Assembly: GCF_026222555.1 (NCBI RefSeq)
Contig: NZ_CP098511.1
Coordinates: forward strand, 3,763,501 to 3,827,500
Source: Aquimarina sp. ERC-38
GTDB lineage: Bacteria > Bacteroidota > Bacteroidia > Flavobacteriales > Flavobacteriaceae
DNA: 64,000 bases
Direction of reading: 5' to 3'
Shown: positions 5,643 through 42,549 of the stretch, piece by piece
How positions within the stretch are numbered: position 1 is the stretch's first letter
Layout of the letters: the number at the start of each line of letters is the position of its first letter
Made by a program: the position numbers and the translations under genes
The notes under the pieces: generated by a model
Databases searched by the model: none
Told to the model about the DNA's origin: nothing
What the model saw: only the letters and a program-made list of their open reading frames with translations

Positions 5643-5717
5643 ATGACTACAGTTAACACAAACCCAGTAAGAAAAATTTTATTAAAAAATTTTCTAAAGC
5701 ATTTTACCACCTATTAA
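5643..5717 (+). CDS. 24-codon leader ORF, copy 2 (putative)
   Basis: This is the counterpart of the frame at 2018. It starts ATG at 5643, shares the opening residues MTTVNTN, has 24 codons and ends in TAA, 197 bp before the second GH86 start. About half of the residues match the first copy and no indel separates them. The stop falls at the same codon but uses a different triplet. Translation and function are unproven. Confidence 0.3.
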   Translation: MTTVNTNPVRKILLKNFLKHFTTY

Positions 5718-5914
5718 AATATCTAAATTGGCAGTTTAGTAAATATTAAGATATCCATATGGATATAATTATTTGCAGCTGAACCTTTCTCATATTTTCT
5801 AAAATCCATGTGTTGTAAATATACGTGATACCGCATATTTAGATCTAAAAACTTAGGGAATATAATTTATACAATCTACATAATCTCTATTAATCAATAT
5901 TTTAATTTTTAACT

Positions 5915-8338: not shown

Positions 8339-8347
8339 TTATATTTT

Positions 8348-8395
8348 AAACTACCGACCAAAATACAGTATTGCATTTTGGTCGGTAGTTTTTTA
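8348..8395 (+). terminator. rho-independent terminator after GH86 copy 2
   Basis: A perfect 17-bp stem (AAACTACCGACCAAAAT with its complement) and a 10-base loop are followed by a T run, 9 bp after the stop. The sequence is unrelated to the terminator of copy 1. Confidence 0.85.
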
Positions 8396-8534
8396 CTCAT
8401 TGAAATAGCTTGGACTTCTCTGATTAGATCCAATAAATAGGTGTTTCTTGCGTAGTTGAAATCATTTTTCAATTGCATAAATTCGTTTTTTTAACCTAAG
8501 GAGTTGTATAAGACTTACTAAAATTATTGGTAGT

Positions 8535-9044
8535 TTAGTTTTGCATAAAGATGTTACTAATATTTCTTTCAATTAAAGTCGAGTCAATGTTAGTTATGTC
8601 GAGGTTTATTTTTACATCAATTTGTATCTCCCACGATGTAGCGTTTAATTTTTTCCCAGATATTGTTCCTTCTGTTATTCTTACGCTTTGGATATTAGAG
8701 CAAAAACAGGTAGCTCTGTAAAAAGCATTGATATCTTCCAGGCTTTCGTTATTTAAGCTAAATTCCTCCATATCCGATTCAATTTCAAAAATAATCTCTT
8801 CACTAAAACCTGAATCAGCTATTTGAGGATCAGAAGGTGAATCAAAAGTGTATTCAAAAACAAGTTTATTTCCTGATTCAATTGTAGCAATAAAAGAATC
8901 TGAATTTTGAGACGGTATTTTAATTTGAGAATCAGTTCTAATAGTATATTCTTTAGTATCAACTTGATTTTGGTCATCATCTCCTTTACATCCGAAAATT
9001 AAAAATAGCAGTATTACATTTAAAAAGATTAGTATATTTTTCAT
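8535..9044 (-). CDS. small lipoprotein of unknown function
   Basis: 169 residues. The N-terminus is a hydrophobic signal with a lipobox ending FGC at about residue 19, followed by KGDDDQNQ. This is typical of flavobacterial lipoproteins, where acidic residues after the cysteine favour surface export. The rest is predicted to be beta-rich, with no motif recognised and two paired cysteines (CFC) near 115. It stands alone, convergent with the GH86 gene, and has no evident partner. Confidence 0.65.
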   Translation of the reverse strand: MKNILIFLNVILLFLIFGCKGDDDQNQVDTKEYTIRTDSQIKIPSQNSDSFIATIESGNKLVFEYTFDSPSDPQIADSGFSEEIIFEIESDMEEFSLNNESLEDINAFYRATCFCSNIQSVRITEGTISGKKLNATSWEIQIDVKINLDITNIDSTLIERNISNIFMQN

Positions 9045-9296
9045 TGAGTTATTTTATACGTAGATACAAAATTTCAAAAAGGTTGCTCAATTGCCCTCAA
9101 CGTCAGTGTAACAAACATATGACAAATAATAAGCATTTTTGCTTCGGATTATTGTTTAACTAAATATAAATATTTTGTTTCTATCTTTTCTTCTATAGAT
9201 GCTAATTTTAAAAATTTAGCGGACTTTATAAAAATGCCCAAACTTTAATTAATAAAATAATCAGCTATCAGTTATATACAATACCGGCAGTAGGTT

Positions 9297-9647
9297 TTAT
9301 TCTGAAGTTTGAATTGGTGTACAAATTTCTATAATAAATCCGTTCAAATCTCTTAAATAACCAACTTCTTGACCCCAAGGTTTCGTTACCGTTTTTTCTA
9401 AAAGTACAGCACCATTTTTAACTGCATTTTGCATTAATTTTTCAACTGTTGATGTCGTAAATGCTAATTCAATACCAAAGGGCTTGTCATTCAAGGTGCT
9501 TTCACTAAAACCTTTTTTAAAGTTCGAGTTACCAAGCTCAGTATTGGCAAATGCAATTGTTGTCGTTCCTGAATTTATCTCGCCGTAGTCCTTTTCAGGT
9601 GTGAGAAATTTTTGTACAAATCCAAATGCGTTTTTGTAGAATTCCAT
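9297..9647 (-). CDS. VOC/glyoxalase-fold protein, start codon lost or non-canonical
   Basis: Vicinal-oxygen-chelate fold protein. The first ATG (9647) gives 116 residues starting MEFYKNAFGF. That start removes the usual first beta-strand. The frame stays open upstream to a TAA at 9720-9722 and encodes a good VOC beginning (IQYAYTILYVKDVPKT) with no ATG, GTG or TTG in the extension. So either translation starts at a rare codon, the original start was mutated, or only the short form is made. The C-terminal half is intact (PWGQEVGYLRDLNGFIIEIC). VOC proteins include glyoxalases, dioxygenases and drug-binding proteins, and the substrate cannot be told. The frame lies just outside the first cassette-like repeat. 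Confidence 0.6.
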   Translation of the reverse strand: MEFYKNAFGFVQKFLTPEKDYGEINSGTTTIAFANTELGNSNFKKGFSESTLNDKPFGIELAFTTSTVEKLMQNAVKNGAVLLEKTVTKPWGQEVGYLRDLNGFIIEICTPIQTSE

Positions 9648-9872
9648 TGTTTTTGGAACGTCTTTTACATATAAAATTGTGTATGCGTACTGAATATCTA
9701 TTTCTTTTGTTTTAGATTCTTATTTATGAACCGTACTATTATGTAGACTATTGACCTCATTTACTCAAGACAGATACACAACTAAGCTGATTGATAAAAG
9801 ACAAAATTTTAAATTGGTATTTAGGCACAAAATTACGCTACTAGTATAATTTCACTTAGTAAAAAAACGACA

Positions 9873-10598
9873 TTATCTAAAGTAGCTTGGATTTTCTCCT
9901 GAAATTCGATTGAATTCATAATTCATATGGGAATGGTCAAAAAAACCTGAATCAAAAGCAATTTCTAAAAGGCTCGTTTCAGTGAAAGAATTTATTAGTT
10001 CTTTAGTGTTTCTAAAACGTACCACATTTGAAAATTCCTTTATTGTTAAACCAATATAACTTTTAAAACGCCTTTCTAATTGTCTTAAGCTAATGTTGTT
10101 TGATTTTGCTATATCGCTAATTTTTATATTCCCTTTTAATGACCTTATTTTTTGTACTACCGACAAAACCAAGTTATCCTGTCTATTATAGTTTTTTTGA
10201 AATAATGTTATTACAAAGTTCTCAAGAAAATCAACTTTATGCAATGTTTGCTTGATATTGTTTAATTCGGTCAATAAATTTTCTTCATAGAAAGGAAATA
10301 TTTGAGATAGTTCAGTTCTTAGGTTTTTGGTTTCGTAGAGCGGGATTTCAAATAGAGAGCCAAACTTTTCGGTTTTAAAACGAACTCCAATTAAATCCGA
10401 TTCGATCGTTAATTCCCGAAGTTGGTAATTGGTCATAATACCTGAAAGAAAGGCTTTATTTTGATTAAGGTCAAAAATCAAATCTGCACAGGTATCAGGC
10501 AATACTTTAAAATTCTCGCTCGCCTTATTCTGTGAGAAAATCCAAAAAGAATCGATGATAGCGTTAAGTCTTTCCGATGGTTTTATCTCTTGGTACAT
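9873..10598 (-). CDS. AraC-family transcriptional regulator
   Basis: About 241 residues from the ATG at 10596-10598 (MYQEIKPSERL). An alternative ATG at 10619 would begin at the edge of the adjacent GC-rich repeat and is less likely. The N-terminal half (about 1-140) resembles the DUF6597-type sensor found on AraC proteins (PDTCADLIFDL). The C-terminal half has two helix-turn-helix motifs: ISDIAKSNNISLRQLERRFK, then LLEIAFDSGFFDHSHMNYEFNR ending GENPSYF, the standard AraC signature. Target genes are unknown; the downstream VOC gene is a possible one. It is preceded directly by repeat copy R1. Confidence 0.85.
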   Translation of the reverse strand: MYQEIKPSERLNAIIDSFWIFSQNKASENFKVLPDTCADLIFDLNQNKAFLSGIMTNYQLRELTIESDLIGVRFKTEKFGSLFEIPLYETKNLRTELSQIFPFYEENLLTELNNIKQTLHKVDFLENFVITLFQKNYNRQDNLVLSVVQKIRSLKGNIKISDIAKSNNISLRQLERRFKSYIGLTIKEFSNVVRFRNTKELINSFTETSLLEIAFDSGFFDHSHMNYEFNRISGENPSYFR

Positions 10599-10616
10599 TG
10601 TTTTTTGAATGAATGC

Positions 10617-10814
10617 CAATGCGCGGGCGGCTATGGTATATTTTTGCAGAGCAAGATATGAAATATCCTAACGGAGAAAAAGTGCGTTATCCCGCCCACG
10701 GCTGGACAAGTAGCAGTCAGTTCTTGCCAGTTCTCCACTCTCGGCGGTGACCGGCAAGAATTGGTGGCGTAGCCGCTCACACACTCAATCCCATACGGAG
10801 CATGGGCTTGAACG
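10617..10814 (-). repeat. GC-rich cassette-like repeat R1
   Basis: Copy of the six-member family, long form. It runs from AATGCGCGGGCGGCTATGG to GGGCTTGAACGG. It contains the AAGATAT/ATATC hairpin, the CAGTTCTTGCC/GGCAAGAATTGG hairpin, and a shortened terminal hairpin (CCCATACGG-AGCATGGG). Its inner end lies about 20 bp before the AraC start codon. Confidence 0.85.
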
Positions 10815-10942
10815 GACGTGACTATGAGTAGTTGCGTGGTTTAGTACTTAACTTAGCAAATACATACCGAACTGAAAATCCGAGAGGATTTACAGAAGTA
10901 GGCAAAAACAAGCAATTACTTATAGCCATTGTCTGCATTTCG

Positions 10943-11956
10943 TTATTTTTTTTCAGCTTCTAATTTAGCAGTCATTTCTTTATGCTTTTCAACATCCCAA
11001 GTTATATTCCAATTTGATATATATTCTTGTAAAGAACCAAGTCCGACTTCATATCTTCTTTCATCAACTTTTTCCGGATTTTCGATTGGTGAAACATAAA
11101 ACTCTCCTGTTTCTTGGTTTCTTCCAATTTGGCTACCGTAAATTTGTCTTTTACCAGTTCTTAAAGCTACTCTGTCCTCTAATAATGCTAAACTACTTGA
11201 TCGTGCATTATTTTTCTTAACTGCATCTCTAATCATTGGTAAGTACTTTTGCTGTATTTCAATTGGCGAATGTTGAATGACTAAAAATAATGTCATATTT
11301 CCTTGTCTTCCAATTATGTCTTGACCAAGCCAACCTCTTTCGTCAAGTATCTTCTGTATTTTTATAAGATTGATAGAGTCTTTTTCCCTTATGGTTTTCC
11401 AATGCATCCTCATTTCGTCTGAATCTCTACCATATTTTTCCTCAACTTCGCTTATTTGTCTTCTTAAACCTTGGTCTTCTTGATATACTGTATCAAGTAT
11501 TGCAACTAAAGGTTTGTCTAAATTTTCTTCAGCTTTTTCTTTATTACTCTTAACTAAATTCAAAACCTCATTCCATCTTTTGTCAGAATGTAGAGCGTTC
11601 AAATCTCCATCTGTTGTAATATGTCCATAATTACTATAATTACCTTTTTCCGCTATTCTGAATAATTGCGCGAATGATGAGTCAATTTGATTGGTTAAAG
11701 CCCAAGAACAAGCAGCGTTATATCTGTCATTTGTATTTTCTTTATTTCTAAGAATAGTAAATGCTTCCGAATATTTCTTTGCAGATGCTAAATAGTCTTG
11801 GTTTTCGTAAAGATTCCAAGCTTCGGTTTTCAATTCAGCATATTTTGCTCTTTCCTCTGAAGTAGGTACTCTTTCTACTATATTTTCTTTTTTTTTCTCT
11901 GTGTTTTTACAAGACGAAAATATTGTTAGTATGACTAGAATTAAAATGTGTTTCAT
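10943..11956 (-). CDS. DUF6624-like lipoprotein with TPR-like region
   Basis: 337 residues from the ATG at 11954-11956. The frame stays open further upstream only because it runs through repeat R2, so the longer start is rejected. MKHILILVILTIFSSC is a lipoprotein signal with the lipid cysteine at 16. Residues 35-140 look helical and TPR-like (AWNLYENQDYLASAKKYSEAF). The C-terminal 150 residues carry the DUF6624 pattern (DERGWLGQDIIG, FLVIQHS, LPMIRDAVKKN, LLEDRVALRTGKRQIYGSQ). The function of that family is unknown. The protein is probably anchored in the outer membrane. It is a single-gene module between repeats R2 and R1. Confidence 0.8.
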   Translation of the reverse strand: MKHILILVILTIFSSCKNTEKKKENIVERVPTSEERAKYAELKTEAWNLYENQDYLASAKKYSEAFTILRNKENTNDRYNAACSWALTNQIDSSFAQLFRIAEKGNYSNYGHITTDGDLNALHSDKRWNEVLNLVKSNKEKAEENLDKPLVAILDTVYQEDQGLRRQISEVEEKYGRDSDEMRMHWKTIREKDSINLIKIQKILDERGWLGQDIIGRQGNMTLFLVIQHSPIEIQQKYLPMIRDAVKKNNARSSSLALLEDRVALRTGKRQIYGSQIGRNQETGEFYVSPIENPEKVDERRYEVGLGSLQEYISNWNITWDVEKHKEMTAKLEAEKK

Positions 11957-11985
11957 AAGTTTCTGGGTTTTGTTAAAATGAATGC

Positions 11986-12192
11986 CAATGTACAGGCGAC
12001 TATGGCATATTTTCATGGAGCAAGATATGAAAATCTTAGCGGAGAAAAAACGCGTTATCCTATCAACGCCTAAACAAGTAGCCACCAGTTTATGCCCGTT
12101 TTCCGCTCTCGGCGGTGACGGGCAAGAACTGGTGGCGTAGCCGCTCATACACTCAATCTCATACGGGCATAGCGGAGTATGGGATTGAACGG
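11986..12192 (-). repeat. GC-rich cassette-like repeat R2
   Basis: Long-form copy, about 207 bp, the most diverged at its outer stem (AATGTACAGGCGACTATGG against CCGCTCATACACTC). It keeps the large CAGTTTATGCCCGT / ACGGGCAAGAACTGG hairpin. Its inner end lies 29 bp upstream of the lipoprotein start codon at 11956. Confidence 0.85.
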
Positions 12193-12322
12193 TTAGTACA
12201 TAAAAAGTAGGCAATTATAAAGAACCAAACTTTCGGTTAAACGCAAAGTTTGATAAGAGTCAAGAGCTTTGGATTTATTAATACTTCGCCTATTTTATAT
12301 ATATATTGTTCTAAGCAAGTAT

Positions 12323-13186
12323 TTAAGATATTCTTTCTCCGTTTAAGTATTCTTGGATATTTTCTAAATTCCCATTCTCATCATAAAGAAATCTTTTACC
12401 CTCAAGTTCTCCATTATTATAATACTCTCTTATAGATTTAGTTCCATTGCTGTTGTACCATACTCGTTCCCCGTTTTCTTTCCCATTTACAATAATTCCT
12501 TCTCTCATTTTATTTCCGGTTGGATAGAAAACCGTTTCTTTGCCATTTGGAATATCTCCTACGTATTCTGTTTCGCTATAAATTCCGCCATCAACTACTT
12601 TACCCTTAAAGTCCCATAATTCGTAGACAAGTCCTTCAATTTTTCCATTATTGTAAAACTTCTTTCTCTTTAGCTTTCCATTTTCTAAGTATTCTTCACT
12701 TTCTCCAACTTGAAGCCCATTTATAAAGTTTTCTTTAAATTTCAACTGTCCATTCTCGTACCATTCACATTGTTCTCCATTTAAATTTCCATTGACGTAA
12801 TTCTTTTCTTTTTCTTTCTGCCCAGTGCCAAACCATTCTTCCCATTTACCATTGAGTTGATCATTCTTCCATTCTTGTCGAGTTTTAGAACCATCATCAT
12901 AAAAGTTTTCTGAAACACCTTCCATTAAACCTTCTTTATAGCTTTCTATTAGGTAGATTTTACTTCTATAGTTCGGATATTGAAAAAAAGGCTTTTTCAT
13001 TCTGCCAACCAAACTGCCATTTAGTTTTTCACCTTTATAGTTCTCTTCTAAAGTATAGTTATCAAAAATCTGCAATTTTTTATCAATTCCATCTTTTTGA
13101 TAAACTTGGAATGTTGAAGTTTCTTCTTTGAGAGTCCAACCCTCAAGATTTAGTTCTTCTATTTCTGATATATATGTCGGTTTCAT
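12323..13186 (-). CDS. MORN-repeat (YwqK-like) protein
   Basis: 287 residues, cytoplasmic, with no signal peptide. From about residue 85 to the end there are at least seven degenerate units of about 22 residues of the MORN_2 type (for example YENGQLKFKENFINGLQVGE, NGKIEGLVYE, NSNGTKSIREYYNNGELEG). Proteins of this kind are often annotated as YwqK-family antitoxins. No toxin gene is adjacent here, so an antitoxin role is not supported by context. It is a single-gene module just downstream of repeat R3. Confidence 0.82.
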   Translation of the reverse strand: MKPTYISEIEELNLEGWTLKEETSTFQVYQKDGIDKKLQIFDNYTLEENYKGEKLNGSLVGRMKKPFFQYPNYRSKIYLIESYKEGLMEGVSENFYDDGSKTRQEWKNDQLNGKWEEWFGTGQKEKEKNYVNGNLNGEQCEWYENGQLKFKENFINGLQVGESEEYLENGKLKRKKFYNNGKIEGLVYELWDFKGKVVDGGIYSETEYVGDIPNGKETVFYPTGNKMREGIIVNGKENGERVWYNSNGTKSIREYYNNGELEGKRFLYDENGNLENIQEYLNGERIS

Positions 13187-13198
13187 TTAATTGCTTAG

Positions 13199-13385
13199 AA
13201 TGCACGGGCGGCTATAGCATGTTTTCACGGAGCAAGATATGAAATATCTTAGCGGAGTGGAAATATGTTGTAGCCGCCAGTTCTTACCTGTTCTCCGCTC
13301 TCGGCGGTGACGGGCAAGAACTGGTGGCGTAGCCGCCTGCACATTCAAGCCCATACGGAGCGTAGCAGAGTATGGGCTTGAATGG
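13199..13385 (-). repeat. GC-rich cassette-like repeat R3
   Basis: Short-form copy (187 bp), lacking about 20 bp in the middle compared with R1, R2, R4 and R5. The ends AATGCACGGGCGGCTA and TAGCCGCCTGCACATT pair with one G-T wobble. It is followed by a perfect CAAGCCCATAC / GTATGGGCTTG hairpin. It lies 12 bp upstream of the MORN gene start. Confidence 0.9.
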
Positions 13386-13575
13386 TTCGGCTATGGCAAG
13401 TAGGGCAGGCAAGGAAACTTTTCGTTTCCGTCTGGTCTGCTAGCCAGAGCTTTTCGTTTTGTAATTATCTTTTCTTTTTTAATTACCAAATCCAAAAGAT
13501 TTGGCGGACTCAATAAACACGCCCAAGCCAATGTCTACAAGACTTAACGCCCTATTTGCTATAGCCATTGTGCTT
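13386..13575 (-). other. module-end sequence between R3 and IS1182
   Basis: No gene is present. On the minus strand it begins GCACAATGGCTATAGC and contains GGGCGTTAAGTC and an AAATC...GATTT hairpin. A similar ACAATGGCTATA word follows the stop of the lipoprotein gene near 10925-10935, and ACAATGGTAAC lies beside the other end of IS1182. These shared words probably mark the 3' end of each accessory module. Confidence 0.35.
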
Positions 13576-15284
13576 GTTGCACAAGATAGTAAAAAGCTAA
13601 CATTGGGTTAATATGTTTAGTTCTTTGATTTCTTATCTTGAAGTATGCAAGGCAAGAAAATATATCAGGAGAAGTTGTTCAGTAGTTTCCAGCTTAGTGA
13701 TCGTGTTGGCAAAGGTAATTTTTACCGCAGGCTCAAAGAGGCTTTGGACCTGGACTATTTATACAATCTTACTTCAAAGTTTTATGGTTCTAGCGGTCAA
13801 AAAAGTATTGATCCAGTGGTTTTCTTCAAACTCTGTTTGGTAGGTTATCTGGAGAATATCATAAGTGACCGCAAGCTTATTGAACACTGTAGTATGCGAC
13901 TGGATATTCTTTATTTCTTAGGGTATGATATTGATGAAGAACTTCCTTGGCATTCGACTATCTCGAGAACACGTCAGTTATTTCCGGAGTCCATATTTGA
14001 AGAGGTCTTTACAAAAGTACTTGAGTTGTGTGTGGAAAAAGGTATGGTCAGTGGTCACACCCAGGCTATTGACAGCGCCCCTGTAAAAGCCAATGCATCC
14101 ATGGATAGTTTAGAGCTTAAAGTCCCAAGCCAAGATCTGGATGCCCACCTGGCAGAAGTACGCCATATCAGTAAAAGAGATAAACAAACCTTCAGAAAAG
14201 CCAAGCAGGATAAATCCAGTAAAGACCAAAGAATCATTACTGCTAATGAGAAAGAACTGCAAGGAATCACTTCCAGGAACAAAAGATGGTCAAAAGATCA
14301 GGATCAGCGCCCGGGAGCTGGAAACAAAGGAAGTCGTTATACGAGTAATAAAACTCATTACAGTCCCACAGATCCGGATGCAAGGATCAGTGTTAAGCCA
14401 GGTAAGGCCAGAAAACTGAACTATTTAAGCCAACTCAGTGTAGATACAAACAACCACGTCATTACCGATATAAAAGCTTACCATGCAGACGGCAAGGATA
14501 ACCAGCAACTACCTGATATTGTAAAGCGCTTACAAAGGCGGTTATGGAAGCAAGGTATGTTTTGGGAAAATTGTGTAGCTGATACTGGTTATAGTAGTGG
14601 AGAGAACTATGCATTTTTGGAAAGTCAAGGTATAAAAAGTTTTATACCGCCTCACGGCACCTATAAGGGTGGTCCGGATGGTTTTCAGTATATAGAAACA
14701 GAAGATCATTATCTGTGTCCCAAAGGAAACGTAATCCCATTTACCAAAGAGTTTTTAGATTATAGAACCAAAACAAGAAAGAAGGAATACAGAGCCAGTA
14801 AAAAGATATGTACCGGTTGTCCACTGCGTAAAGAATGCCTAAAGAGCAGTCAGGAGAAACGAATAACGGTTACTTATTACCGGGCGGAATATGAGCGTAA
14901 CATAGCTAGAGTAAACAGTAAACAGGGGCGCTATATGAAAGCCAAACGGCAGAGTACTGTGGAGCCGGTATTTGGGACTCTTACCCAATTTATGGGACTA
15001 CGAAAAATTAATACTATTGGAATCCAGCAAGCAAACAAGATTATGCACTTGGCGGCTATTGCTTATAACTTGAAGAAATACCTGAAATTCACCAAGAAAA
15101 ACCCAATAAGTAAAGTGGGAGTCTGTTTAGCCCATAATTTTTCGATTAAAATACCTTTTAAGGCGTAAAATAAGCAATTTAGCGCTAGTTGTATTGAGGT
15201 AGTTATGAATATATCCCTCTAGAAAATCAGGGCTTAAACTCAAGATTATTGATTGTCCTTTGACTTTTTAGGGGCTTGTGCAAC
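13576..15284 (+). mobile_element. IS1182-family insertion sequence
   Basis: Terminal inverted repeats begin GTTGCACAAG on the left (13576) and end CTTGTGCAAC on the right (15284), with further matches inward around AAAAAG. The 1.7 kb length and single transposase gene fit the IS1182 family. It sits between two cassette-like modules. The transposase frame is intact, so the copy may be active. No clear target duplication is visible. Confidence 0.8.
13645..15168 (+). CDS. IS1182-family transposase
   Basis: 507-residue DDE transposase. The N-terminal DUF772-type region is at about 50-115. The catalytic acids are probably D143 (AIDSAPVKA), D313 (VADTGYSSGENY) and E440 (STVEPVFGTL). A four-cysteine cluster (C358, C389, C392, C398) typical of the family could bind zinc. 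The ATG at 13645 gives the standard start (MQGKKIYQEKLFSSF). An overlapping frame from 13613 is a shadow. Full length, with no lesion seen. Confidence 0.92.
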   Translation: MQGKKIYQEKLFSSFQLSDRVGKGNFYRRLKEALDLDYLYNLTSKFYGSSGQKSIDPVVFFKLCLVGYLENIISDRKLIEHCSMRLDILYFLGYDIDEELPWHSTISRTRQLFPESIFEEVFTKVLELCVEKGMVSGHTQAIDSAPVKANASMDSLELKVPSQDLDAHLAEVRHISKRDKQTFRKAKQDKSSKDQRIITANEKELQGITSRNKRWSKDQDQRPGAGNKGSRYTSNKTHYSPTDPDARISVKPGKARKLNYLSQLSVDTNNHVITDIKAYHADGKDNQQLPDIVKRLQRRLWKQGMFWENCVADTGYSSGENYAFLESQGIKSFIPPHGTYKGGPDGFQYIETEDHYLCPKGNVIPFTKEFLDYRTKTRKKEYRASKKICTGCPLRKECLKSSQEKRITVTYYRAEYERNIARVNSKQGRYMKAKRQSTVEPVFGTLTQFMGLRKINTIGIQQANKIMHLAAIAYNLKKYLKFTKKNPISKVGVCLAHNFSIKIPFKA

Positions 15285-15383
15285 GGTTACCATTGTTGGC
15301 ATAAGTTTTTCTTTTCACGTAACGATTACGTTTAAGTAAAGTCCATCTGCGCAACGATTTTCAGTTCCATTTGCACAGCTTTT

Positions 15384-15508
15384 TCACACTCTACTTTCAA
15401 TTCTTTGCATCATACTTGAATTCAAGTTGTCAATTTTTAAATTAGAACGAATTTCTTTAAGAAGTGTTAAATATAGTTGGAATATTTTATCGTGTGAATT
15501 ACAATTCT
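15384..15508 (-). pseudogene. 3' fragment of gene split by IS30 copy A
   Basis: The minus strand, read in the phase that continues the gene at 16627-17041, gives QNCNSHDKIFQLYLTLLKEI and on to SMMQRIESRV, then TGA at 15384-15386. Removing the IS (15509-16626) joins ...GAATTAAATC to AGAATTG... in frame. The restored product would be 179 residues. This supports both the IS boundaries and the disruption. Confidence 0.65.
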
Positions 15509-15513
15509 TACAT

Positions 15514-16512
15514 TCAAGTTATAAATGCGACAGTTTGGGTTTTGTTGATAAAAGTTGCGTATACCTCATTGGGTGTTTTATACCCGAACCTTTTCCTGGG
15601 CCTATTGTTTAAAATGTTTTCTACTTTCTCTACCGCTTCCTTAGTTATCTCTGCAAAGCTACTACCTTTTGGGAAATATTACCTTATCAGCCCGTTGAGG
15701 TTTTCATTGGCACCCCGTTGCCAGCTATGGTAGGGTTTTGCAAAGTAGAAATCAATGTCAAGCTCCTCTGCTATTTCCTGATGGTTTGCAAACTCCTTCC
15801 CGTTGTCACTGGTAATAGTTTTAATGAAGGGCTTCCAATCTTCCAGTAGTTCTTCCGTTTTCACCTGGACTTCCCGGGCTGATTTGTTTTCTATATGCCC
15901 CATCCTTAGCATCCCTGTAGCCCTATCGTTTATAGTGACAAGGGCACCTCTATGGTCTTTACCTATCACCAGGTCAATCTCAAGGTCACCTATCCTTTCT
16001 TTTTTGTCTACTACCCGGGGGCGTTCTGTTATGTCCCTTCTATTAGGGATGCACCCCCTACCTGCTTGCTTACCGCCCCTTTTCTGGTACTTCCTTCCCT
16101 GGTTACGCAAACAAAGGTATGCTTTCCCGCCTGCTTTCTTATCTTGCCATATAAACTGGTAGATACGCTCATGCGATACACAAGGGGTCCCTTCTAACAT
16201 AGCCCTTCCTTTGATCTGTTCCGGGCTAAGGTGGTCTTGAAGCCCATCGCAAACAAGCTTCTCCATGGAAGGGGTAAAAACCTTATGCTTTGTTTTATCC
16301 TTATGGCGTTTTTGGGCTTTTCTTTGGGCTAGCTCAGCATTGTACTTCCCACTTCGGTGATCAGCATTGCGTCCTACTTCCCTATATATAGTAGAGCGAT
16401 CCCGACCCAACTGTTCTGCTATTTCCTTTTTAGGGGTTTTAAGTTCTAAAAGCGCTGATATTTTGTACCTTTCCTCCAGCGTTAAATGTTCCATATTCTT
16501 TAAGTTTTCCAA
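15514..16512 (-). pseudogene. IS30 transposase with nonsense codon
   Basis: This copy is almost identical to the intact transposase at 21624, but codon 278 is TAA where the intact copy has CAG. Translation stops after 277 residues (ANENLNGLIR). The three catalytic acids (D180, D236, E270) lie before the stop, but the C-terminal 55 residues are lost. The remaining downstream frame is still recognisable up to the terminal repeat, so the lesion is recent. The product is probably inactive, although copy B could act on these ends in trans. Confidence 0.85.
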
Positions 16513-16536
16513 CCCAAAGGTATGAGATTTTTAGCC

Positions 16537-16582
16537 GCCCCCACCATAGTTTTAGCCCTAGGGCTAAAACTATGGTGGGGGC
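16537..16582. repeat. 46-bp perfect palindrome inside IS30 copy A
   Basis: GCCCCCACCATAGTTTTAGC reads into its exact complement with no loop. It lies between the terminal repeat and the transposase start. As RNA it would form a strong hairpin followed by a T-run on the plus strand (GGGGGCTTTTT), so it may terminate transcription entering the element. Confidence 0.85.
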
Positions 16583-16609
16583 TTTTTATCAACAGCTAAG
16601 CTGTTGCAT

Positions 16610-17041
16610 TTATGTGTTGAATCTAAGATTTAATTCAGTATCAAAGTGTGCATATTGAGTAATATATTTAATGCAATACTGTGAAAATTCTAAGGCTGCA
16701 TTCAAAGTCTCGCTAGGAAGATAAAATGATGATTTCATAATGACTCTTTCTATTTCCAAGGCAATTTCATCCATTTTCATAACTTCTTTTTCATAATATT
16801 TGGTCCATTTATCTTTGTCCTTATAATCATAGATTTCAACGAGAGGTGAATTATTTGGATTCAATTTGTTGAATGCGTTAAAACATAGCTCGTTCAGTTT
16901 TGAGTATGTCTCAAATTTCATATTGAAAATTTTGTCTTCATAATCTTTCTTTTTGTAAAATCGATATGTTAAGTACCCGACAAGAAATGTCGCTGATGTT
17001 AGGAGGATATTTATTGAAGTTAAAACTTGTTCAGAATTCAT
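16610..17041 (-). pseudogene. small membrane protein truncated by IS30
   Basis: The 5' part of a gene starts at ATG 17041 (MNSEQVLTSINILL). A TTG at 17059 inside the repeat edge is less likely. One transmembrane helix lies at about 8-27, followed by basic residues and a helical, probably coiled cytoplasmic region. The last codons (RFNT, TAA at 16610) are supplied by the IS30 terminal repeat, so the native C-terminus is lost. It continues at 15384-15508. The layout resembles small membrane-anchored proteins of unknown function in accessory regions; no family is recognised. Repeat R4 lies 17 bp upstream. Confidence 0.7.
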
Positions 17042-17057
17042 TTTTGAAATTTGTGCC

Positions 17058-17264
17058 AATGCGCGGGCGGCTATGGCATGTTTTCACGGAGCAAGATATG
17101 AAATATCTTAGCGGAGTGGAAATTTGCTATCCTGCCTACGGCTGGACAAGTAGCAGCCGGTTCTCGCCCGTTCTCCGCTCTCGGCGGTGACGGGCAAGGA
17201 CTGGTGGCGTAGACGCCTACACATTCAAGCCCATACGGAGAGTAGCGGAGTATGGGCTTGAACG
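17058..17264 (-). repeat. GC-rich cassette-like repeat R4
   Basis: Long-form copy, 207 bp, close to the family consensus. It has ends AATGCGCGGGCGGCTATGG and GTATGGGCTTGAACG, with all three hairpins present. It lies 17 bp from the start codon of the IS30-split gene and 67 bp beyond the stop of the DinB gene. Confidence 0.9.
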
Positions 17265-17330
17265 CCTCTTGTATGGTGCGTTTGATTCCCGAAGGGAGCA
17301 AATGAACTATATAAACTGTTGTGATGCGTT

Positions 17331-17867
17331 TTAAATTATATTTTTGGCTTTTTTAAGTTCAAATTTGTATGGATTACCTATTGTTCTCTTTAAACTGGCT
17401 ATCTGTCCGCAATGCCACATTGTATGTTTTATATTCCAATCAATGGCTTCAAATTTTGTCTTAGCAACAGGATGTTCCACTTTTCCGGGTATCAATTCAT
17501 TTTTAAGTTCTTCCGGAGTTAAAGAATTGATTATTTCTAGGGACTTTTTTTCAATAATCTCAAGATGATTTTTTAATTCCGTCGTGGTCAGTTTTCCAGC
17601 AGAATCTTTAGGTGAAGAATAAAACGTATATAATTCAGAATACTTTTTTATTGGAATTTGCTTTAGAATATCTTCTTGATGTCCTTTAATAACAAGAATC
17701 GAATGATAATAAATGCTAATTACTAAATGTCCAACTTGCCAAGAGACATTCGACTCTAAGATTTCAGGAGTTTCATTCCATTTTTCTTCAGGAATCGAAT
17801 CTACCAGTTTATGAATCCATAGATAAGTATCCTTAGTTTGCTTACTAAAAATTTCAATTTCTGTCAT
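17331..17867 (-). CDS. DinB-fold putative metalloprotein
   Basis: 178 residues with the DinB/YfiT four-helix-bundle pattern. It begins with SKQTKDTYLWIHKLVDSIPEEKW, has a first histidine in SWQVGHLV (about 47), and has paired histidines in IKHTMWHCGQIASLKR (about 149 and 153). These are the usual three metal ligands. Family members are often thiol-dependent S-transferases or of unknown role. It is cytoplasmic with no signal peptide. It is a single-gene module between R5 and R4. Confidence 0.85.
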   Translation of the reverse strand: MTEIEIFSKQTKDTYLWIHKLVDSIPEEKWNETPEILESNVSWQVGHLVISIYYHSILVIKGHQEDILKQIPIKKYSELYTFYSSPKDSAGKLTTTELKNHLEIIEKKSLEIINSLTPEELKNELIPGKVEHPVAKTKFEAIDWNIKHTMWHCGQIASLKRTIGNPYKFELKKAKNII

Positions 17868-17897
17868 TTCTTTACTTTAATATATCCAATAAACTAT

Positions 17898-18104
17898 AAT
17901 GTGCGAGCGACTATGGCATGTTTTCACAGAGCAAGATATGAAATATCTTAGTGGAGTAAAAATGCGTTATCCTGCCAACGGCTGGACAAGTAGCAACCAG
18001 TTGTTGCCCGTTCTCCGCTCCTGGCAGTGACAAGTAAGATCTGGTGGCGTAGCCGCCCAAACATTCAAGCCCATACAGAGCGCAACAGAGTATGGGCTTG
18101 AACG
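17898..18104 (-). repeat. GC-rich cassette-like repeat R5
   Basis: Long-form copy, 207 bp, with several changes in the outer stem (AATGTGCGAGCGACTATGG against CCGCCCAAACATT) and the big hairpin (CTCCTGGCAGTGACAAG). It lies 31 bp from the DinB start codon. Its outer end is only 7 bp from the 3' end of the group II intron. Confidence 0.88.
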
Positions 18105-18111
18105 GGTTTTT

Positions 18112-18795
18112 GTTAAGTAGACAAGGAGATGCTCACCCCCCTAACCTCTCACAGATCCGTATCCCAATCTGCATTGGGACAAACTGTGATAGTCTCCAAT
18201 CATACGGCTCTTTTTATACAAATCTATTAATGATTTTATCTCATTCCATAAAGTCATCCTCTCTCAAGTCTGTATAAGCCCATCCCTTCGCTTCGGATTC
18301 ATTACAAAACCCTCATAACTACTACGGACGGGTCCGCCCCTGTATACCCTATCGGTATTCTGCCCCTAAGTTGTACTTATTGTACATTTCCCTTTGCACG
18401 GGTATACAAGTTCCCCGAGTTCCATTCATAAGCCCAGATAAAAGTCATGTCTCCTAAATGACGCCTGTCGCTTAGCCTGTAAACAGGTTTGCGCTAAACT
18501 GATCACGGATCATATATTTGAGTCCGCTTTTGATAGAGTGTGGCACTTCTCCGGCACTTCATCAGAGGTTCATTCTCATTCGTCTCTTTTATCTATACCT
18601 GAACGCGTTCTTGACGCGATCTTTTACATAACGCTCAATACCTTGGCTCTTTACCAAAGCACCCCCGCATCAAGTGCGGGGCAAGCTTTATGGGGGTTTG
18701 ATGCGCTCTCCTGTAAGACAACACCGGTGGGTCGGTTCCACCATCTTATAAACAGTTGCGTAACGATTTTCAGCCGTTCATTACTCTCGGTACAC
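18112..18795 (-). ncRNA. ORF-less group II intron
   Basis: Read on the minus strand it begins GTGTACC (18795) and contains typical domain I-III words (GAACTCGGGGAACTTG, GGACCCGTCCGTAGTAG, GCGAAGGGATGGGCTTATAC). Domain V starts AGAGCCGTATGATTGGAGAC at 18211 and closes with TACGGATCT near 18152. Domain VI follows and ends CTACTTAAC at 18112, with an A seven bases from the end as likely branch point. The length of 684 nt leaves no room for a reverse transcriptase in domain IV, so any mobility needs help in trans. Domain V has an extra 22-25 nt hairpin (TCCCAAT/ATTGGGA) at the catalytic bulge. The exact 5' end is less certain than the 3' end. Confidence 0.75.
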
Positions 18796-18915
18796 ATATG
18801 AAAAGTAGCGGATTTTACTCACTTATTTTTCAGTTTTACAATGACCTTATTTTATTTATTTTCTTTCGATTAAGCGATAAAATCGCTATTTTTTATATAC
18901 GTTACGTGCTAGCTT

Positions 18916-20238
18916 TTATTTATTTTCTGTTTTAAATTCAATCAAATACGGTTTTAATGGAATCCAATCTGTTGTTCTAAAATTGTTGTGTAATAAAATT
19001 TGATACTGTTTATTAGGTTCTAAATCTACAGGAATTGTATAAGATTTATTGTCTTCTGACCAATATCTACCAACTGCGCTATTTTTAGGGAAATAGTCCT
19101 TGCTTAAAGGCCCAAATTCTATTCCTGTACTAGTACCATTTAATGGCTCTGAAAATTCTACAGTGATTTGGTTCATTTTTGGATTCACATTTTTATTTTT
19201 GTTTTCAAATTGCTTTATTCCTATTACAGTAGGTCTTTTATTCTTAAAATTTTGATAAAGTTCATCAAGCGATGCTGAAAAAAAACTTGTTGAATGTACG
19301 AATTCCTCTATTTCGGTTTCGTTGTTAAAATCTAATTCGATAAGCTTTTTAATGGCTTCTTTCTTATTTTCTGCTTGTTCATAAAAGTTTTCTGCCATTT
19401 GATACCCTATGTAATATATTAAATCTCGCACTCCAAATTCATTAGATGTACCACTGCTCCATAACCATTTGAATCTATTGTTGGTATAGAACATTTCTTG
19501 TTCAAATTTATCTCTAACACTATCTGCATTTTTCTTCCCAAATTCAATAGAAGGTGCAGCAGAAGGAACATCCATTGCTTTTACAGAAACAAATTCTGCA
19601 ACACCTTCATAGATTGACAAAGAAAGTAAGTTGTGAACCATTGGTTTCTGTTGTGTATGGACATATTCATGAATGTTCAATAGAACCAAATTATCAATGG
19701 GACTACTATCAAAAAATGTTCGTCTATCTTCTCGCTCTTCTTTAGGAAATTCAGTTGATATTGTATGTTTATCTGCCATTGCCAATTCGCTGCCTATTAG
19801 TACTAAACTGTCTAATGTGGTTCCATTTGTTCTAAATGCTCCAATTGTAAAATAGATTTTTGCAGGTTTTAGGTCAGGATAAATTTTACTAAATTTTTCG
19901 ATTCCATCTTGTAATTCAGAACTAAATTGGTTGGCTTTTAAAGTGTTTTCTCTTATTGAAGTCCAAAATTCGGGATAGTTGTTAATAGTGCGTAAGTAAT
20001 CTTGTAGCGTATAATTTCTTACTTGTCGGATAGCTTTTAATCCTTCTGTCCCTTTTTTAAAGTACAGGCTGTCGAGATATTGGTATTGCAAAGTTGAATC
20101 TTGAGTCGATGTGATTTTGTCATAGGCTTCCCAAAAGTTATTTATGTCTGTTGTTACAATGTTTTTATAGCCCTTTTTTTCTGTTTGACGACTCACTAAA
20201 ATTATTACTGTTGTCAGTAAACCTAAAAGTTTTATCAT
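18916..20238 (-). CDS. HExxH zinc metallopeptidase-like protein
   Basis: 440 residues. The N-terminus (MIKLLGLLTTVIILVSRQTEKK) is a signal segment that looks like a lipoprotein leader with arginine where the lipid cysteine should be (VSRQ for VSCQ). A zincin motif HEYVH spans 190-194, and EGVAEF at about 211-216 supplies a possible third ligand. The pattern resembles DUF2268/gluzincin-type proteins whose roles are unknown. The C-terminal 110 residues look like an immunoglobulin-type domain (QITVEFSEPLNG). Probably periplasmic or surface-located. It is a single-gene module just after repeat R6; the group II intron lies 120 bp beyond its stop. Confidence 0.7.
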   Translation of the reverse strand: MIKLLGLLTTVIILVSRQTEKKGYKNIVTTDINNFWEAYDKITSTQDSTLQYQYLDSLYFKKGTEGLKAIRQVRNYTLQDYLRTINNYPEFWTSIRENTLKANQFSSELQDGIEKFSKIYPDLKPAKIYFTIGAFRTNGTTLDSLVLIGSELAMADKHTISTEFPKEEREDRRTFFDSSPIDNLVLLNIHEYVHTQQKPMVHNLLSLSIYEGVAEFVSVKAMDVPSAAPSIEFGKKNADSVRDKFEQEMFYTNNRFKWLWSSGTSNEFGVRDLIYYIGYQMAENFYEQAENKKEAIKKLIELDFNNETEIEEFVHSTSFFSASLDELYQNFKNKRPTVIGIKQFENKNKNVNPKMNQITVEFSEPLNGTSTGIEFGPLSKDYFPKNSAVGRYWSEDNKSYTIPVDLEPNKQYQILLHNNFRTTDWIPLKPYLIEFKTENK

Positions 20239-20269
20239 ATTTATTTCAGTGTTTTATTCAGCTTGAACA

Positions 20270-20456
20270 TAATGTGCGGGCGGCTATGGCATGTTTTCAC
20301 GGAGCAAGATATGAAATATCTTTGCGGAGTGGAAATTTGCTATAGCAGCCAGTTCTTGCCCGTTCTCCGCTCTCGGCGGTGACGGGCAAGAACTGGTGGC
20401 GTAGCCGCCCGCACATTCAAGCCTATATGGAGCGTAGCGGAGTATGGGCTTGAACG
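20270..20456 (-). repeat. GC-rich cassette-like repeat R6
   Basis: Short-form copy (about 187 bp) with the best-preserved outer stem. AATGTGCGGGCGGCTA pairs perfectly with TAGCCGCCCGCACATT, and CAGTTCTTGCCCGT pairs perfectly with ACGGGCAAGAACTG. Its inner end lies about 32 bp upstream of the metallopeptidase start. It is the copy nearest the tRNA gene. Confidence 0.92.
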
Positions 20457-20645
20457 TAGGTATATACAAACCTATCAAAAAAAGAACTGATAACTCAATC
20501 AAAGAAAGTAATTATCACAACATTTTAATAGTCATTTTTATAACTCTCAACAAGTCAGCTATACCAACCTTTTAGTATCTCAAATGAAAGTATGTATAAA
20601 AGAAATCCCTTTAAAACCTTACAATTTTAAAGGGATTACCGTATG

Positions 20646-20720
20646 TCGGGTAGAGAGGATTCGAACCTCCGATCTCACGCCCCCCAGACGTGCACTTTAA
20701 CCGGACTAAGCTACTACCCG
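20646..20720 (-). tRNA. tRNA-Pro(GGG)
   Basis: The minus strand folds as a full cloverleaf. The acceptor CGGGTAG pairs with CTACCCG followed by discriminator A. The D-arm is GCTTAGTCCGGTTAAAGT. The anticodon stem CACGT/GCGTG encloses loop CTGGGGG (anticodon GGG). The T-arm is GGAGGTTCGAATCCTCT. CCA is not encoded. The 3' end points toward the accessory island, the usual side for island integration. Confidence 0.95.
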
Positions 20721-20772
20721 TATTTCATTCTTTCCAAAGGTGTCACTAATTCCATTCTTCCCGCTACAACCA

Positions 20773-20803
20773 GGACACTTTAAACGGACTAAGCTACTAC
20801 CCG
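20773..20803 (-). repeat. partial duplicate of tRNA-Pro 5' half
   Basis: This repeats the first 31 bases of the tRNA-Pro gene with three mismatches, in the same orientation, 53 bp upstream of the real gene. It lacks the anticodon arm and 3' half, so it cannot be a tRNA. It is probably a scar of slippage, recombination or island integration. Confidence 0.85.
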
Positions 20804-20886
20804 TTGATAGCAGTTCTATACTACCATTTCCAAATTTTGGTTTGCAAATATAAGGATACTACCATAAATAGAAAATGTTTTAAAAA

Positions 20887-21360
20887 CTATCTCTGTAAAA
20901 ACTCAATTTTAGGTAGAAACCTGCCGGTAGTTTTCTGGTAAGCCCCGTATTCTTTAAAGTAATTAGCCAAAAGCTGCTCTTCATAATTACTTTTATAATA
21001 AAACAAAATTAGCAACAATACGGAAATAAGTACTTTATAAAAGGATCCTTGGTAAATAGCGGAACCAAAAAACAACATCAATATTCCACTATAAATTGGA
21101 TGACGTATATATTTAAAAATTCCACTGGTAATCAATTTCCCCTTTTCACGCGGACTGGGAAAAGGAGAAAGTTGCTTTCGTAATTGGAAAATACTTATAA
21201 TGATTATAAGAAAACCTACAACTTTAGCCAGATAACAGAATAACATTACATTATATCCTACTTCAAAAACATACCAGGTAAAGGGTAGTAAAAACAAAAT
21301 AAATAGCAATGCCTGTAGACCTACTAATAGCTTATCCTTTTTAGGAAGTACTGTAAACAT
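20887..21360 (-). CDS. isoprenylcysteine methyltransferase-like membrane protein
   Basis: 157 residues with about four transmembrane segments (near 12-30, 37-58, 88-105 and 110-125). The C-terminal half carries the ICMT/PEMT-type SAM-binding pattern: YIRHPIYSG, then E (YEEQLL), F..YG.YQ and TGRFLPKI. Bacterial members methylate small lipophilic or isoprenoid-linked substrates that are mostly unknown. It stands alone between the tRNA and IS30 copy B. The start MFTVLPKK is the only ATG before the first helix. Confidence 0.85.
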   Translation of the reverse strand: MFTVLPKKDKLLVGLQALLFILFLLPFTWYVFEVGYNVMLFCYLAKVVGFLIIIISIFQLRKQLSPFPSPREKGKLITSGIFKYIRHPIYSGILMLFFGSAIYQGSFYKVLISVLLLILFYYKSNYEEQLLANYFKEYGAYQKTTGRFLPKIEFLQR

Positions 21361-21553
21361 TTAATAACTTTATTTTGCAACAAAACTACGTACTATTTCT
21401 GATCTTTATACATTCCTATTTTAATCAATTTCGAACCTTTAGACTTTTTAAAGCGTTTCTAAGTTACCCTAATTTGCATTTATCTTTCTAAAAAATTATT
21501 TTAAAACTTCTTAGATTCAACACATAAATGCAACAGCTTAGCTGTTGATAAAA

Positions 21554-21599
21554 GCCCCCACCATAGTTTTAGCCCTAGGGCTAAAACTATGGTGGGGGC
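21554..21599. repeat. 46-bp perfect palindrome inside IS30 copy B
   Basis: Same palindrome as in copy A, without a single change, 25 bp before the transposase start. Perfect retention in both copies suggests a function, such as termination of read-through transcription or transposition control. Confidence 0.85.
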
Positions 21600-21623
21600 G
21601 GCGAAAAATCTCATACCTTTGGG

Positions 21624-22622
21624 TTGGAAAACTTAAAGAATATGGAACATTTAACGCTGGAGGAAAGGTACAAAATATCAGCACTTTTAGAACTTAAAAC
21701 CCCTAAAAAGGAAATAGCAGAACAGTTGGGTCGGGATCGCTCTACTATATATAGGGAAGTAAGACGCAATGCTGACAACCGAAGTGGGAAGTACAATGCT
21801 GAGCTAGCCCAAAGAAAAGCCCAAAAACGCCATAAGGATAAAACAAAGCACAAGGTTTTTACCCCTTCTATGGAGAAGTTGGTTTGTGATGGGCTTCAAG
21901 ACCACCTTAGCCCGGAACAGATCAAAGGAAGGGCTATGCTAGAGGGGACCCCTTGTGTATCGCATGAACGTATTTACCAGTTTATATGGCAGGATAAGAA
22001 AGCAGGCGGGAGAACATACCTTTGTTTGCGTAATAAGGGAAGGAAGTACCAGAAAAGAGGCGGTAAGCAAGCAGGTAGGGGGTGCATCCCTAATAGAAGG
22101 GACATAACAGAACGCCCCCGGGTAGTAGACAAAAAAGAAAGGATAGGTGACCTTGAGATTGACCTGGTGATAGGTAAAGACCATAGAGGTGCCCTTGTCA
22201 CTATAAACGATAGGGCTACAGGGATGCTAAGGATGGGACATATAGAAAACAAATCAGCCCGGGAAGTCCAGGTGAAAACGGAAGAACTACTGGAAGATTG
22301 GAAGCCCTTTATTAAAACTATTACCAGTGACAACGGGAAGGAGTTTGCAAACCATCAGGAAATAGCAGAGGAGCTTGACATTGATTTCTACTTTGCAAAA
22401 CCCTACCATAGCTGGCAAAGGGGTGCCAATGAAAACCTCAACGGGCTGATAAGGCAGTATTTCCCAAAAGGTAGTAGCTTTGCAGAGATAACTAAGGAAG
22501 CGGTAGAGAAAGTAGAAAACATTTTAAACAATAGGCCTAGGAAAAGGTTCGGGTATAAAACACCCAATGAGGTATACGCAACTTTTATCAACAAAACCCA
22601 AACTGTTGCATTTATAACTTGA
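21624..22622 (+). CDS. IS30-family transposase
   Basis: 332 residues. The N-terminal helix-turn-helix (LTLEERYKISALLELKTP to DRSTIYREVRRN, about 10-50) binds the terminal repeats. The rve-type DDE core has D180 (LEIDLVIGKDHRGA), D236 (ITSDNGKEF) and E270 (YHSWQRGANENLNGLIRQYFPKG, the IS30 signature). Full length, no lesion. It probably also serves copy A in trans. Confidence 0.95.
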   Translation: MENLKNMEHLTLEERYKISALLELKTPKKEIAEQLGRDRSTIYREVRRNADNRSGKYNAELAQRKAQKRHKDKTKHKVFTPSMEKLVCDGLQDHLSPEQIKGRAMLEGTPCVSHERIYQFIWQDKKAGGRTYLCLRNKGRKYQKRGGKQAGRGCIPNRRDITERPRVVDKKERIGDLEIDLVIGKDHRGALVTINDRATGMLRMGHIENKSAREVQVKTEELLEDWKPFIKTITSDNGKEFANHQEIAEELDIDFYFAKPYHSWQRGANENLNGLIRQYFPKGSSFAEITKEAVEKVENILNNRPRKRFGYKTPNEVYATFINKTQTVAFIT

Positions 22623-22652
22623 ATGTAGGCATAGATAAATCTAAATTGTACT

Positions 22653-22949
22653 TTAATAAGATTTAATCTTCCGGATCAGGTCATTTTTTGATAAAACACC
22701 GGACTGTCGCCAGAGTTGCTTTCCGTCTTTAAAAACCATCATGGTAGGAACTCCCCTCACCTGGAATTGATTAGCCAGGTTTTGATTTTTATCCACATCA
22801 ATTTTAACAATTTTTACCTCATCCCCCATTTCGGATTTTACTTCTTTTAAAACCGGAGCTAATGCTTTACAAGGGTCACACCAGTCCGCATAAAAATCTA
22901 CCAGTACAGGTGTCGAGGTATTTATAATATTTTTAAATGAATCTGTCAT
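22653..22949 (-). CDS. trxA: thioredoxin
   Basis: 98-residue cytoplasmic thioredoxin. The active site is W23-C24-D25-P26-C27-K28, differing from the usual WCGPCK by Asp for Gly. The rest is canonical: VDFYADWC, KIDVDKNQNLANQFQVRGVPTMMVFKDGK with the cis-proline near 73. The Asp variant is common among Bacteroidota thioredoxins (from memory) and shifts redox behaviour. It follows cbpA and cbpM on the same strand with gaps of 9-15 bp, so a three-gene operon is likely. Confidence 0.92.
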   Translation of the reverse strand: MTDSFKNIINTSTPVLVDFYADWCDPCKALAPVLKEVKSEMGDEVKIVKIDVDKNQNLANQFQVRGVPTMMVFKDGKQLWRQSGVLSKNDLIRKIKSY

Positions 22950-22964
22950 AATTTTATCTTTTAC

Positions 22965-23261
22965 TTAAAAATCTTCGTATAACCTTAGTCGTTTTTGTAG
23001 TACTTTCATTTCATCTTTGACTTGTTGCATTTCATCAAGTAAGCGTAAAATCACATCCACTCCTTCTACATTAATATGTAAATCCTTATTAAATCGTACA
23101 ATTTGTTCCAACCTGGGTAAGGTGTCCTGCTCAATATAATAAGACTGATGAACAGAAACAACCTGGATCAGCCCCATATCTTGCAGTTCACGGATAAAAG
23201 TATCCTCTACCTTATGATTTTTACAAAAATCCAATAAGGGTATTAAATGTTCTGATGTCAT
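22965..23261 (-). CDS. cbpM: CbpM-like chaperone modulator
   Basis: 98 residues with a MerR-like winged-helix fold (LLDFCKNHKVEDTFIRELQDMGLIQVV, ... LPRLEQIVRFNKDLHINVEGVDVILRLLDEM) and a short C-terminal coiled coil. CbpM binds the J-domain of CbpA and restrains its stimulation of DnaK. Position directly after cbpA (9 bp gap) supports the call. Confidence 0.88.
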   Translation of the reverse strand: MTSEHLIPLLDFCKNHKVEDTFIRELQDMGLIQVVSVHQSYYIEQDTLPRLEQIVRFNKDLHINVEGVDVILRLLDEMQQVKDEMKVLQKRLRLYEDF

Positions 23262-23270
23262 AAGCCTGAT

Positions 23271-42503: not shown

Positions 42504-42549
42504 TGTTTATATACTTATAACTTAACCAATCTTCATCAAAAATACCAAA

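Follow-up and report, generated by a model that had tools for sequence, protein, structure and literature searches.

In integrons, the bases past the crossover are part of the cassette, and their complement recurs in the inverse core that lies at the cassette's own far end. According to the sources cited, classical attC sites measure 57-141 bp and are bounded by RYYYAAC and GTTRRRY (PMC3053210), the integrase IntI is defined by an additional domain said to be necessary (PMC9668308), the IntI insertion is essential for function yet not fully conserved in an integron-like subgroup (PMC8138268), and clusters of attC sites lacking an integrase are known as CALIN (PMC9024848). Here we describe an array of genes and GC-rich repeats in Aquimarina sp. 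ERC-38, a member of the Flavobacteriaceae. It lies in a stretch of 64,000 nucleotides (nt), referred to below as the window, which covers 3.7635-3.8275 Mb of the 4.43-Mb single-contig genome. Sequence comparison makes it very probable that the repeats are geneless cassettes standing between the gene cassettes of an integron-like array without an adjoining recombinase gene, and likely that such arrays are built by an Xer-type tyrosine recombinase related to IntI but outside it. Our literature search, with subscription journals and bioRxiv outside its coverage, found no description of such a system in Flavobacteriaceae, and the accessible portions of PMC9024848, PMC2426708, PMC8618304, PMC9668308, PMC8138268 and PMC3053210 contain no Flavobacteriaceae system of this kind.

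The arrays considered here share with chromosomal integrons a recombinase at the array head, an attI-like junction, cassettes in one orientation with short 5' ends, GTT/AAC cores, cassette starts that match their own R'', and folded attC-like sites of similar size. They differ in that the recombinases lack the IntI insertion, the matched core is GTT plus 7 nt and often breaks GTTRRRY, one of two recombinase types (about 380 amino acids, aa) has its array on the downstream side of the gene, and some arrays carry geneless cassettes between genes. The window array may be comparable to a CALIN in having sites and genes with no recombinase gene beside them, and differs in that its sites are non-classical. 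On sequence evidence the system thus works as an integron does, yet two of the features tested place it outside the family as defined.

Six copies of the repeat (185-206 bp, end points rechecked) lie in the window in a single orientation. They are collinear and far above chance, with a mutual likeness of 64-92% over 137-207 nt, and each ends 12-32 nt ahead of the ATG start of a minus-strand gene. An earlier sequence-only reading had placed the six copies in this way, and its gene names held for the AraC type (DUF6597 plus HTH_18), DUF6624, MORN_2 and DinB_2, all above Pfam cut-offs, but its membrane protein (143 aa) and metallopeptidase (440 aa) had no Pfam match. The array reads as follows, from its head; the geneless cassettes were placed by alignment, and the named genes were identified by Pfam.

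20456..20560, minus strand: array head, attI-like, ATAGGTTTGTATATACCTACG|TT, predicted from sequence shared with the U1-2 head described below; outer limit approximate
20271..20455, minus strand: geneless cassette, copy 6, 185 bp
18916..20238, minus strand: cassette gene, 440 aa, without Pfam match
18104..18915, minus strand: 3' interval of the 440-aa cassette (attC position), with a group II intron remnant inside
17898..18103, minus strand: geneless cassette, copy 5, 206 bp
17331..17867, minus strand: cassette gene, DinB_2, 178 aa
17264..17330, minus strand: 3' interval of the DinB cassette (attC position), whose start and end cores no longer match
17058..17263, minus strand: geneless cassette, copy 4, 206 bp
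16610..17041, minus strand: cassette gene, 143 aa, without Pfam match, with an IS30-like element directly after it
15504..16586, minus strand: IS30-like element, transposase open reading frame (ORF) 15679-16512, inverted copy of 21550-22632
13568..15291, plus strand: IS1182-like element, transposase ORF 13645-15168; ends approximate
13199..13383, minus strand: geneless cassette, copy 3, 185 bp
12323..13186, minus strand: cassette gene, MORN_2, 287 aa; the cassette begins with (ATT)CTAAGCAA
12191..12318, minus strand: attC-like site of the MORN cassette; R'' TTGCTTAG-AAC, with an 8-nt match to its own start
11987..12190, minus strand: geneless cassette, copy 2, 204 bp
10943..11956, minus strand: cassette gene, DUF6624, 337 aa
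10814..10939, minus strand: attC-like site of the DUF6624 cassette, whose cores match in part, as judged by eye
10618..10813, minus strand: geneless cassette, copy 1, 196 bp
9873..10598, minus strand: cassette gene, AraC type (DUF6597 plus HTH_18), 241 aa
20645..20720, minus strand: tRNA-Pro(ggg), adjoining the array head and probably a mere neighbour of it

Further copies lie to the left of the window; the sequence-only reading had mentioned neither these nor the transposase genes and intron remnant in the array. A BLAST search of the genome with one copy gave 21 matches, 13 of them at E < 1e-50, at 20 distinct places (one match being an inverted piece of another), clustered near 2.80-2.82, 2.99-3.00, 3.76-3.78 and 4.09 Mb, with single places besides. 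Together with position 4092196, these made up 21 places with a conserved 3' end. At 19 of them a called ORF begins 8-59 nt past the repeat end in the same orientation; the exceptions are 2815862 (147 nt) and 2817855 (no ORF called within 150 nt). Among 56 genomes searched, only one other, Aquimarina sp. U1-2, a sister species of the same genus, held a sister array sharing the repeat, with 20 geneless-cassette ends in a single array of about 32 kb.

The conserved end of the repeat, CA|TT, is followed by a short gene-specific stretch and then by the gene. In many gene cassettes, the 7 nt after (G/A)TT recur in reverse complement as the 7 nt ahead of AA(C) just past the gene's own stop codon, the pattern to be expected of cassettes that circularise at a single core. 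We scored this as the longest X for which (A/G)TT-X lies shortly before a gene and complement(X)-AA at most 47 nt after a stop codon, comparing each gene's own end with those of all others. Matches with X of at least 7 were found for 22 of 92 own pairs against 53 of 8372 other pairs in eight arrays of other genomes (p 1.4e-26), 5 of 51 against 14 of 2550 in the ERC-38 genome (p 2.2e-5), 32 of 154 against 180 of 23562 at 20 Aquimarina loci, four of which have less than 200 nt downstream (p 1.2e-34), and 43 of 219 against 376 of 47742 at 20 loci of 20 other genera (p 7e-45). This last sample, from 19 single-contig genomes and one of ten contigs, was picked before the flanks were viewed; 13 of its 20 loci had at least two genes scored at 6 or more, the score-6 cases including some A/T-rich chance matches. 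In scored cases the inverse core mostly lies within 11 nt of the stop codon, as N7-AAC followed by ACCGTATATAA or AATGGCTATAA. A plain longest-match test over all the data gave matches of at least 8 nt for 42 of 97 own pairs, as against 158 of 1580 other pairs.

The repeat has the same architecture with no gene inside. Read in the direction of the genes, it starts with (G/A)TTCAAGCC or a near variant, which pairs with GGGCTTGAATG about 20 nt further on, and continues into TGCGGGCGGCTA, the pairing partner of TAGCCGCCCGCGCATT at the very end of the repeat. A structure alignment of 16 copies (13 from this genome and 3 from U1-2) gave a predicted consensus structure in which 93.7% of cells are paired and 13 of 49 pairs have changed on both sides, as against 4.7 in shuffles, none of 500 shuffles being as high; the structure was predicted from the same alignment that was used to test it, which favours the result. 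Sliding the pairing partners sharply lowers this covariation signal, and one geneless copy gave a good DNA fold (z -5.3). Because its own start and inverse core match each other, yet enclose no gene, the GC-rich repeat is best interpreted as a geneless cassette in its own right, ending in CA|TT, rather than as the preceding gene's attachment site. The repeat's core, CA|TT opposite AATG, departs from the G|TT/AAC found elsewhere. A similar geneless element occurs in three copies in an array of the Cyclobacteriaceae (L119), ending in CACG|TT with CGCGAACG opposite. In both cases the change is matched: the A of the window core is balanced by the T of AATG, and the G in L119 by the C of AACG. In the window, U1-2 and L119 alike, a geneless repeat stands directly at the array head, ahead of any gene. 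In Allomuricauda and Flagellimonas (L133 and L135), the attI-like GTT at the array head is directly followed by another kind of GC-rich palindrome (GGGAAAAATGCCTGCGGCCG..), perhaps a further geneless-cassette family.

The attC-like sites were studied in 41 intervals, each bounded by two scored cassettes, from the eight arrays, 11 of the 20 loci of other genera and 6 of the 20 Aquimarina loci, picked for their scored cassettes. The sites are 136-142 nt long in 26 of the 41 cases and fold end to end as DNA, with a mean of 11.7 end-to-end pairs against 1.85 in shuffles (mean z -2.5) and at least 6 such pairs at 28 of the 41 sites. All 41 have a GTT core, though ATT was also permitted in the search. 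They depart in many cases from RYYYAAC/GTTRRRY: RRRY is often broken (GTTGTAA, GTTGTGG, GTTACCA), and the window repeats have CATT.

In U1-2, the same type of array is headed by a divergent, intact tyrosine recombinase of 276 aa with a full catalytic set and by an attI-like junction, and ATAGGTT(C/T)GTATATA is common to this head, which adjoins the recombinase gene, and to the head of the window array. Where the sequence on the array side extends for 800 nt or more, 11 of 13 loci with recombinases of this type have a scored cassette; among loci whose recombinase is at most 46% identical, L138, L140, L141 and L142 have no cassette scored at 6 or more, unlike L139. A relative of about 380 aa, some 39-46% identical to the U1-2 protein in Aquimarina, occurs in many Flavobacteriaceae; its stop codon is directly followed by an attI-like junction, for example TTATAACATTGTT|N7, with the array further downstream. 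At E<=1e-60 the recombinase family was detected in 188 of 299 Flavobacteriaceae genomes and 151 of 236 genera, mostly with one member; the count of 188 includes a broken copy in ERC-38, and arrays were checked for part of these genomes only.

A recombinase gene adjoining attI and an array is thus found in relatives, and not in the window: there is no PF00589 match in or beside its array, and no intact family member in this genome at E<=1e-60. The broken copy, at 2.81 Mb, has internal stops, adjoins another repeat cluster and is nearest to the ~380-aa type (42% over the piece). The window array therefore looks like an orphan, with no recombinase gene beside it and two insertion sequences (ISs) and a group II intron remnant within. 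The recombinases differ from Xer and XerA in sitting at array heads, and for XerC/D-type genes in the same genome the identity is only about 33%. From the first to the second catalytic Arg (R134-R226) they have 91-93 residues in 63 of 63 cases, covering both types, with arrays demonstrated for part of the 63 only, as against 134 residues in 11 of 11 IntI. The U1-2 recombinase scored 181.9 bits against TIGR02249, below the cut-off of 265. In phylogenetic trees the 276-aa clade (support 100/99) and IntI (100/100) each formed a single group; the branching order among these two, the ~380-aa type and Xer was not settled, and the ~380-aa rows were not one group. The trees took every second row of both types, one with 2 IntI rows and the other with IntI from 11 of 12 loci (L247 gave none); the ~380-aa set represents 36 of 40 loci, the other four having given no ORF by motif. 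A structure comparison gave a fold match only.

In all six pairs of heads that share an attI-like stretch, likeness was higher ahead of GTT than beyond it (0.97/0.57, 0.93/0.53, 0.88/0.70, 0.80/0.67, 0.78/0.63 and 0.77/0.63). This divergence at GTT lends indirect support to the excision and integration of cassettes by the recombinase. As to the tRNA-Pro gene beside the window head, a role as integration site found no support: ARAGORN found no tRNA in 72 kb around the U1-2 array; just upstream of the intact gene, 20770-20806 is by eye a partial copy of its 5' half.

IS1111-attC elements and group IIC-attC introns favour classical attC sites, and mobile elements also occupy attC positions here. 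Two transposase genes lie within the window array, in elements that we take to be IS1182-like and, presumably, IS30-like. The former is flanked by R''-like and L''-like pieces of an attC and has nine near-identical copies in this genome, of which seven abut N7-AACA and an eighth N7-AATA, while the ninth (3.249 Mb) abuts neither of these nor any AAC core. Seven of the nine lie at most 5.5 kb from a listed repeat end, and a more distant IS1182-like copy (L259) stands directly after GGCTTACAAC. Two copies in the ERC-38 genome, at 542098-543628 and 2892665-2894195, are far from listed repeats and still abut N7-AACA; their flanks are possible lone cassette sites. The group II intron remnant, at 18112-18742 on the minus strand, holds the attC position of the 440-aa gene cassette, with no long reverse transcriptase ORF listed; RF01999 matches at 18597-18742 above the cut-off (62.1 bits) and RF00029 at 18112-18212 below it (24.1 bits). 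These insertions differ from IS1111-attC and group IIC-attC in that the IS family is another one by its transposase and the intron class is known from the Rfam match alone. The IS30-like copies at 15504-16586 and 21550-22632 are inverted and 97% alike; they flank the array head together with tRNA-Pro, and both contain the same perfect 46-nt palindrome (16537-16582 and 21554-21599).

The integron-cassette geometry that had been proposed from the letters alone is borne out by the core pairing, the recombinase at the U1-2 head, the attI-like junctions and the IS copies in sites. That proposal had noted a mismatch to attC core triplets, which is partly real, CA|TT/AATG being a matched change from G|TT/AAC, and had seen no integrase, which is true in and beside the window array, whereas a recombinase stands beside the same array in U1-2. 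In the mechanism that we propose, the recombinase would recognise the folded single strand of the site and join cassettes between G (or A) and TT. Each geneless cassette would first have accepted a gene cassette, and the two would then have moved or been copied jointly, which would give the near-alternation in the array. The orphan array of the window would now be decaying. More broadly, we think it likely that most Flavobacteriaceae carry a second integron lineage, with Xer-type recombinases lacking the IntI domain, folded attC sites, a GTT-plus-7-nt core and two layouts, in some lineages of which a geneless cassette, passed between orders, would be both landing pad and partner of almost every captured gene.

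Several observations weigh against this interpretation. Recombination itself was not observed. The insertion of about 42 residues held essential in IntI is absent from all 63 recombinases measured. Because a repeat-sharing array was found in one other genome of the 56, the maker of the window array rests on likeness to U1-2. Within the window, only the MORN cassette, one of six, keeps the full start/end match (8 nt); the DUF6624 core is partly kept and the remaining cassettes have drifted or been interrupted. Applied to the window by itself, the plain longest-match test fell short of significance (1129 of 5000 permutations were as high), as did the DNA fold of the MORN site alone (z -1.5). Even near recombinases, own-gene matches are a minority of the called genes (the 22 of 92 and 43 of 219 above), partly because of ORF calls and drift, and 7 of the 20 loci of other genera had fewer than two scored genes.

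The sequence-only reading had taken the repeat as a gene's recombination site, and in a refined form the GC-rich repeat would be the long 3' part of the preceding gene's attC, the mobile unit being a gene and all that follows up to CA|TT. The interval from stop codon to CA|TT is indeed contiguous, and by eye TAGCCGCCCGCGCATT could pair in part with a GGCTATA-like piece after some stop codons. However, the repeat has its own start, G|TTCAAGCC, matching its own inverse core, with changes on both sides at 5 of the 10 pairs of this helix, it precedes any gene at the three array heads named above, and arrays without the repeat have complete attC sites, most of them of the length already given. We therefore consider this division of the array unlikely and keep the geneless cassette, while the array geometry of the sequence-only reading stands. 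That the arrays were made by a classical IntI-type integron, since lost, with the neighbouring Xer-like recombinases unrelated, is much less probable still. The array logic and the GTT/AAC cores are those of an integron, and IntI exceeds the NCBIfam cut-off in 84 of 296 genomes of a phylum sample; but this genome has no TIGR02249 match above the cut-off, of the 85 genomes of the sample with a match, one belongs to the class of ERC-38 and none to its family, and the Xer-like genes lie exactly at array heads.

The two other origins that had been suggested found no support in our tests, and we give either almost no credence. Hairpins and many copies would suit elements resembling repetitive extragenic palindromes (REPs) or miniature inverted-repeat transposable elements, moved by a Y1 (REP-associated tyrosine) or other transposase and lying 5' of genes by chance or selection. 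Y1 transposase genes are present in both genomes (2 matches here and 4 in U1-2), but none of the four in U1-2 is on the array contig. The repeats keep to gene starts at 19 of 21 places and stand in ordered arrays, the bases that follow them match the opposite end of the gene concerned, and by eye the alignment contains no target-site duplication. A conserved structure just 5' of genes would also suit a mobile RNA leader of the riboswitch or attenuator kind that regulatory selection had spread; yet no Rfam family exceeds its cut-off there (only tRNA and a group II intron model pass in 8000-24000), the cassette cores are part of the conserved pairing, and arrays that lack the repeat have the same junctions. 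A geneless cassette could nonetheless have a regulatory side role.

Outside the array, the window contains other repeated stretches. At 50479-51777 there are four tandem copies of a unit of about 300 nt, spaced at 333 nt and 65-83% alike to the reference. The stretches 1617-3176 and 5241-6793 are a duplication with a spacing of about 3.62 kb, 72-94% alike in pieces, the second taking in the start of an 807-aa ORF (5915-8338). A 71-nt direct repeat (85%) with a GC-rich CCTGCCCG..GGCGGG hairpin lies at 42434-42504 and 49290-49360.

If the interpretation given here is right, integron surveys based on IntI and classical attC sites would miss a cassette-capture system of this kind. It would also mean that a domain held essential for attC recombination is dispensable in another lineage, and the origin of structure-specific recombination from Xer-like enzymes would become directly testable. 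The arrays themselves are a large, little-read pool of apparently mobile genes.

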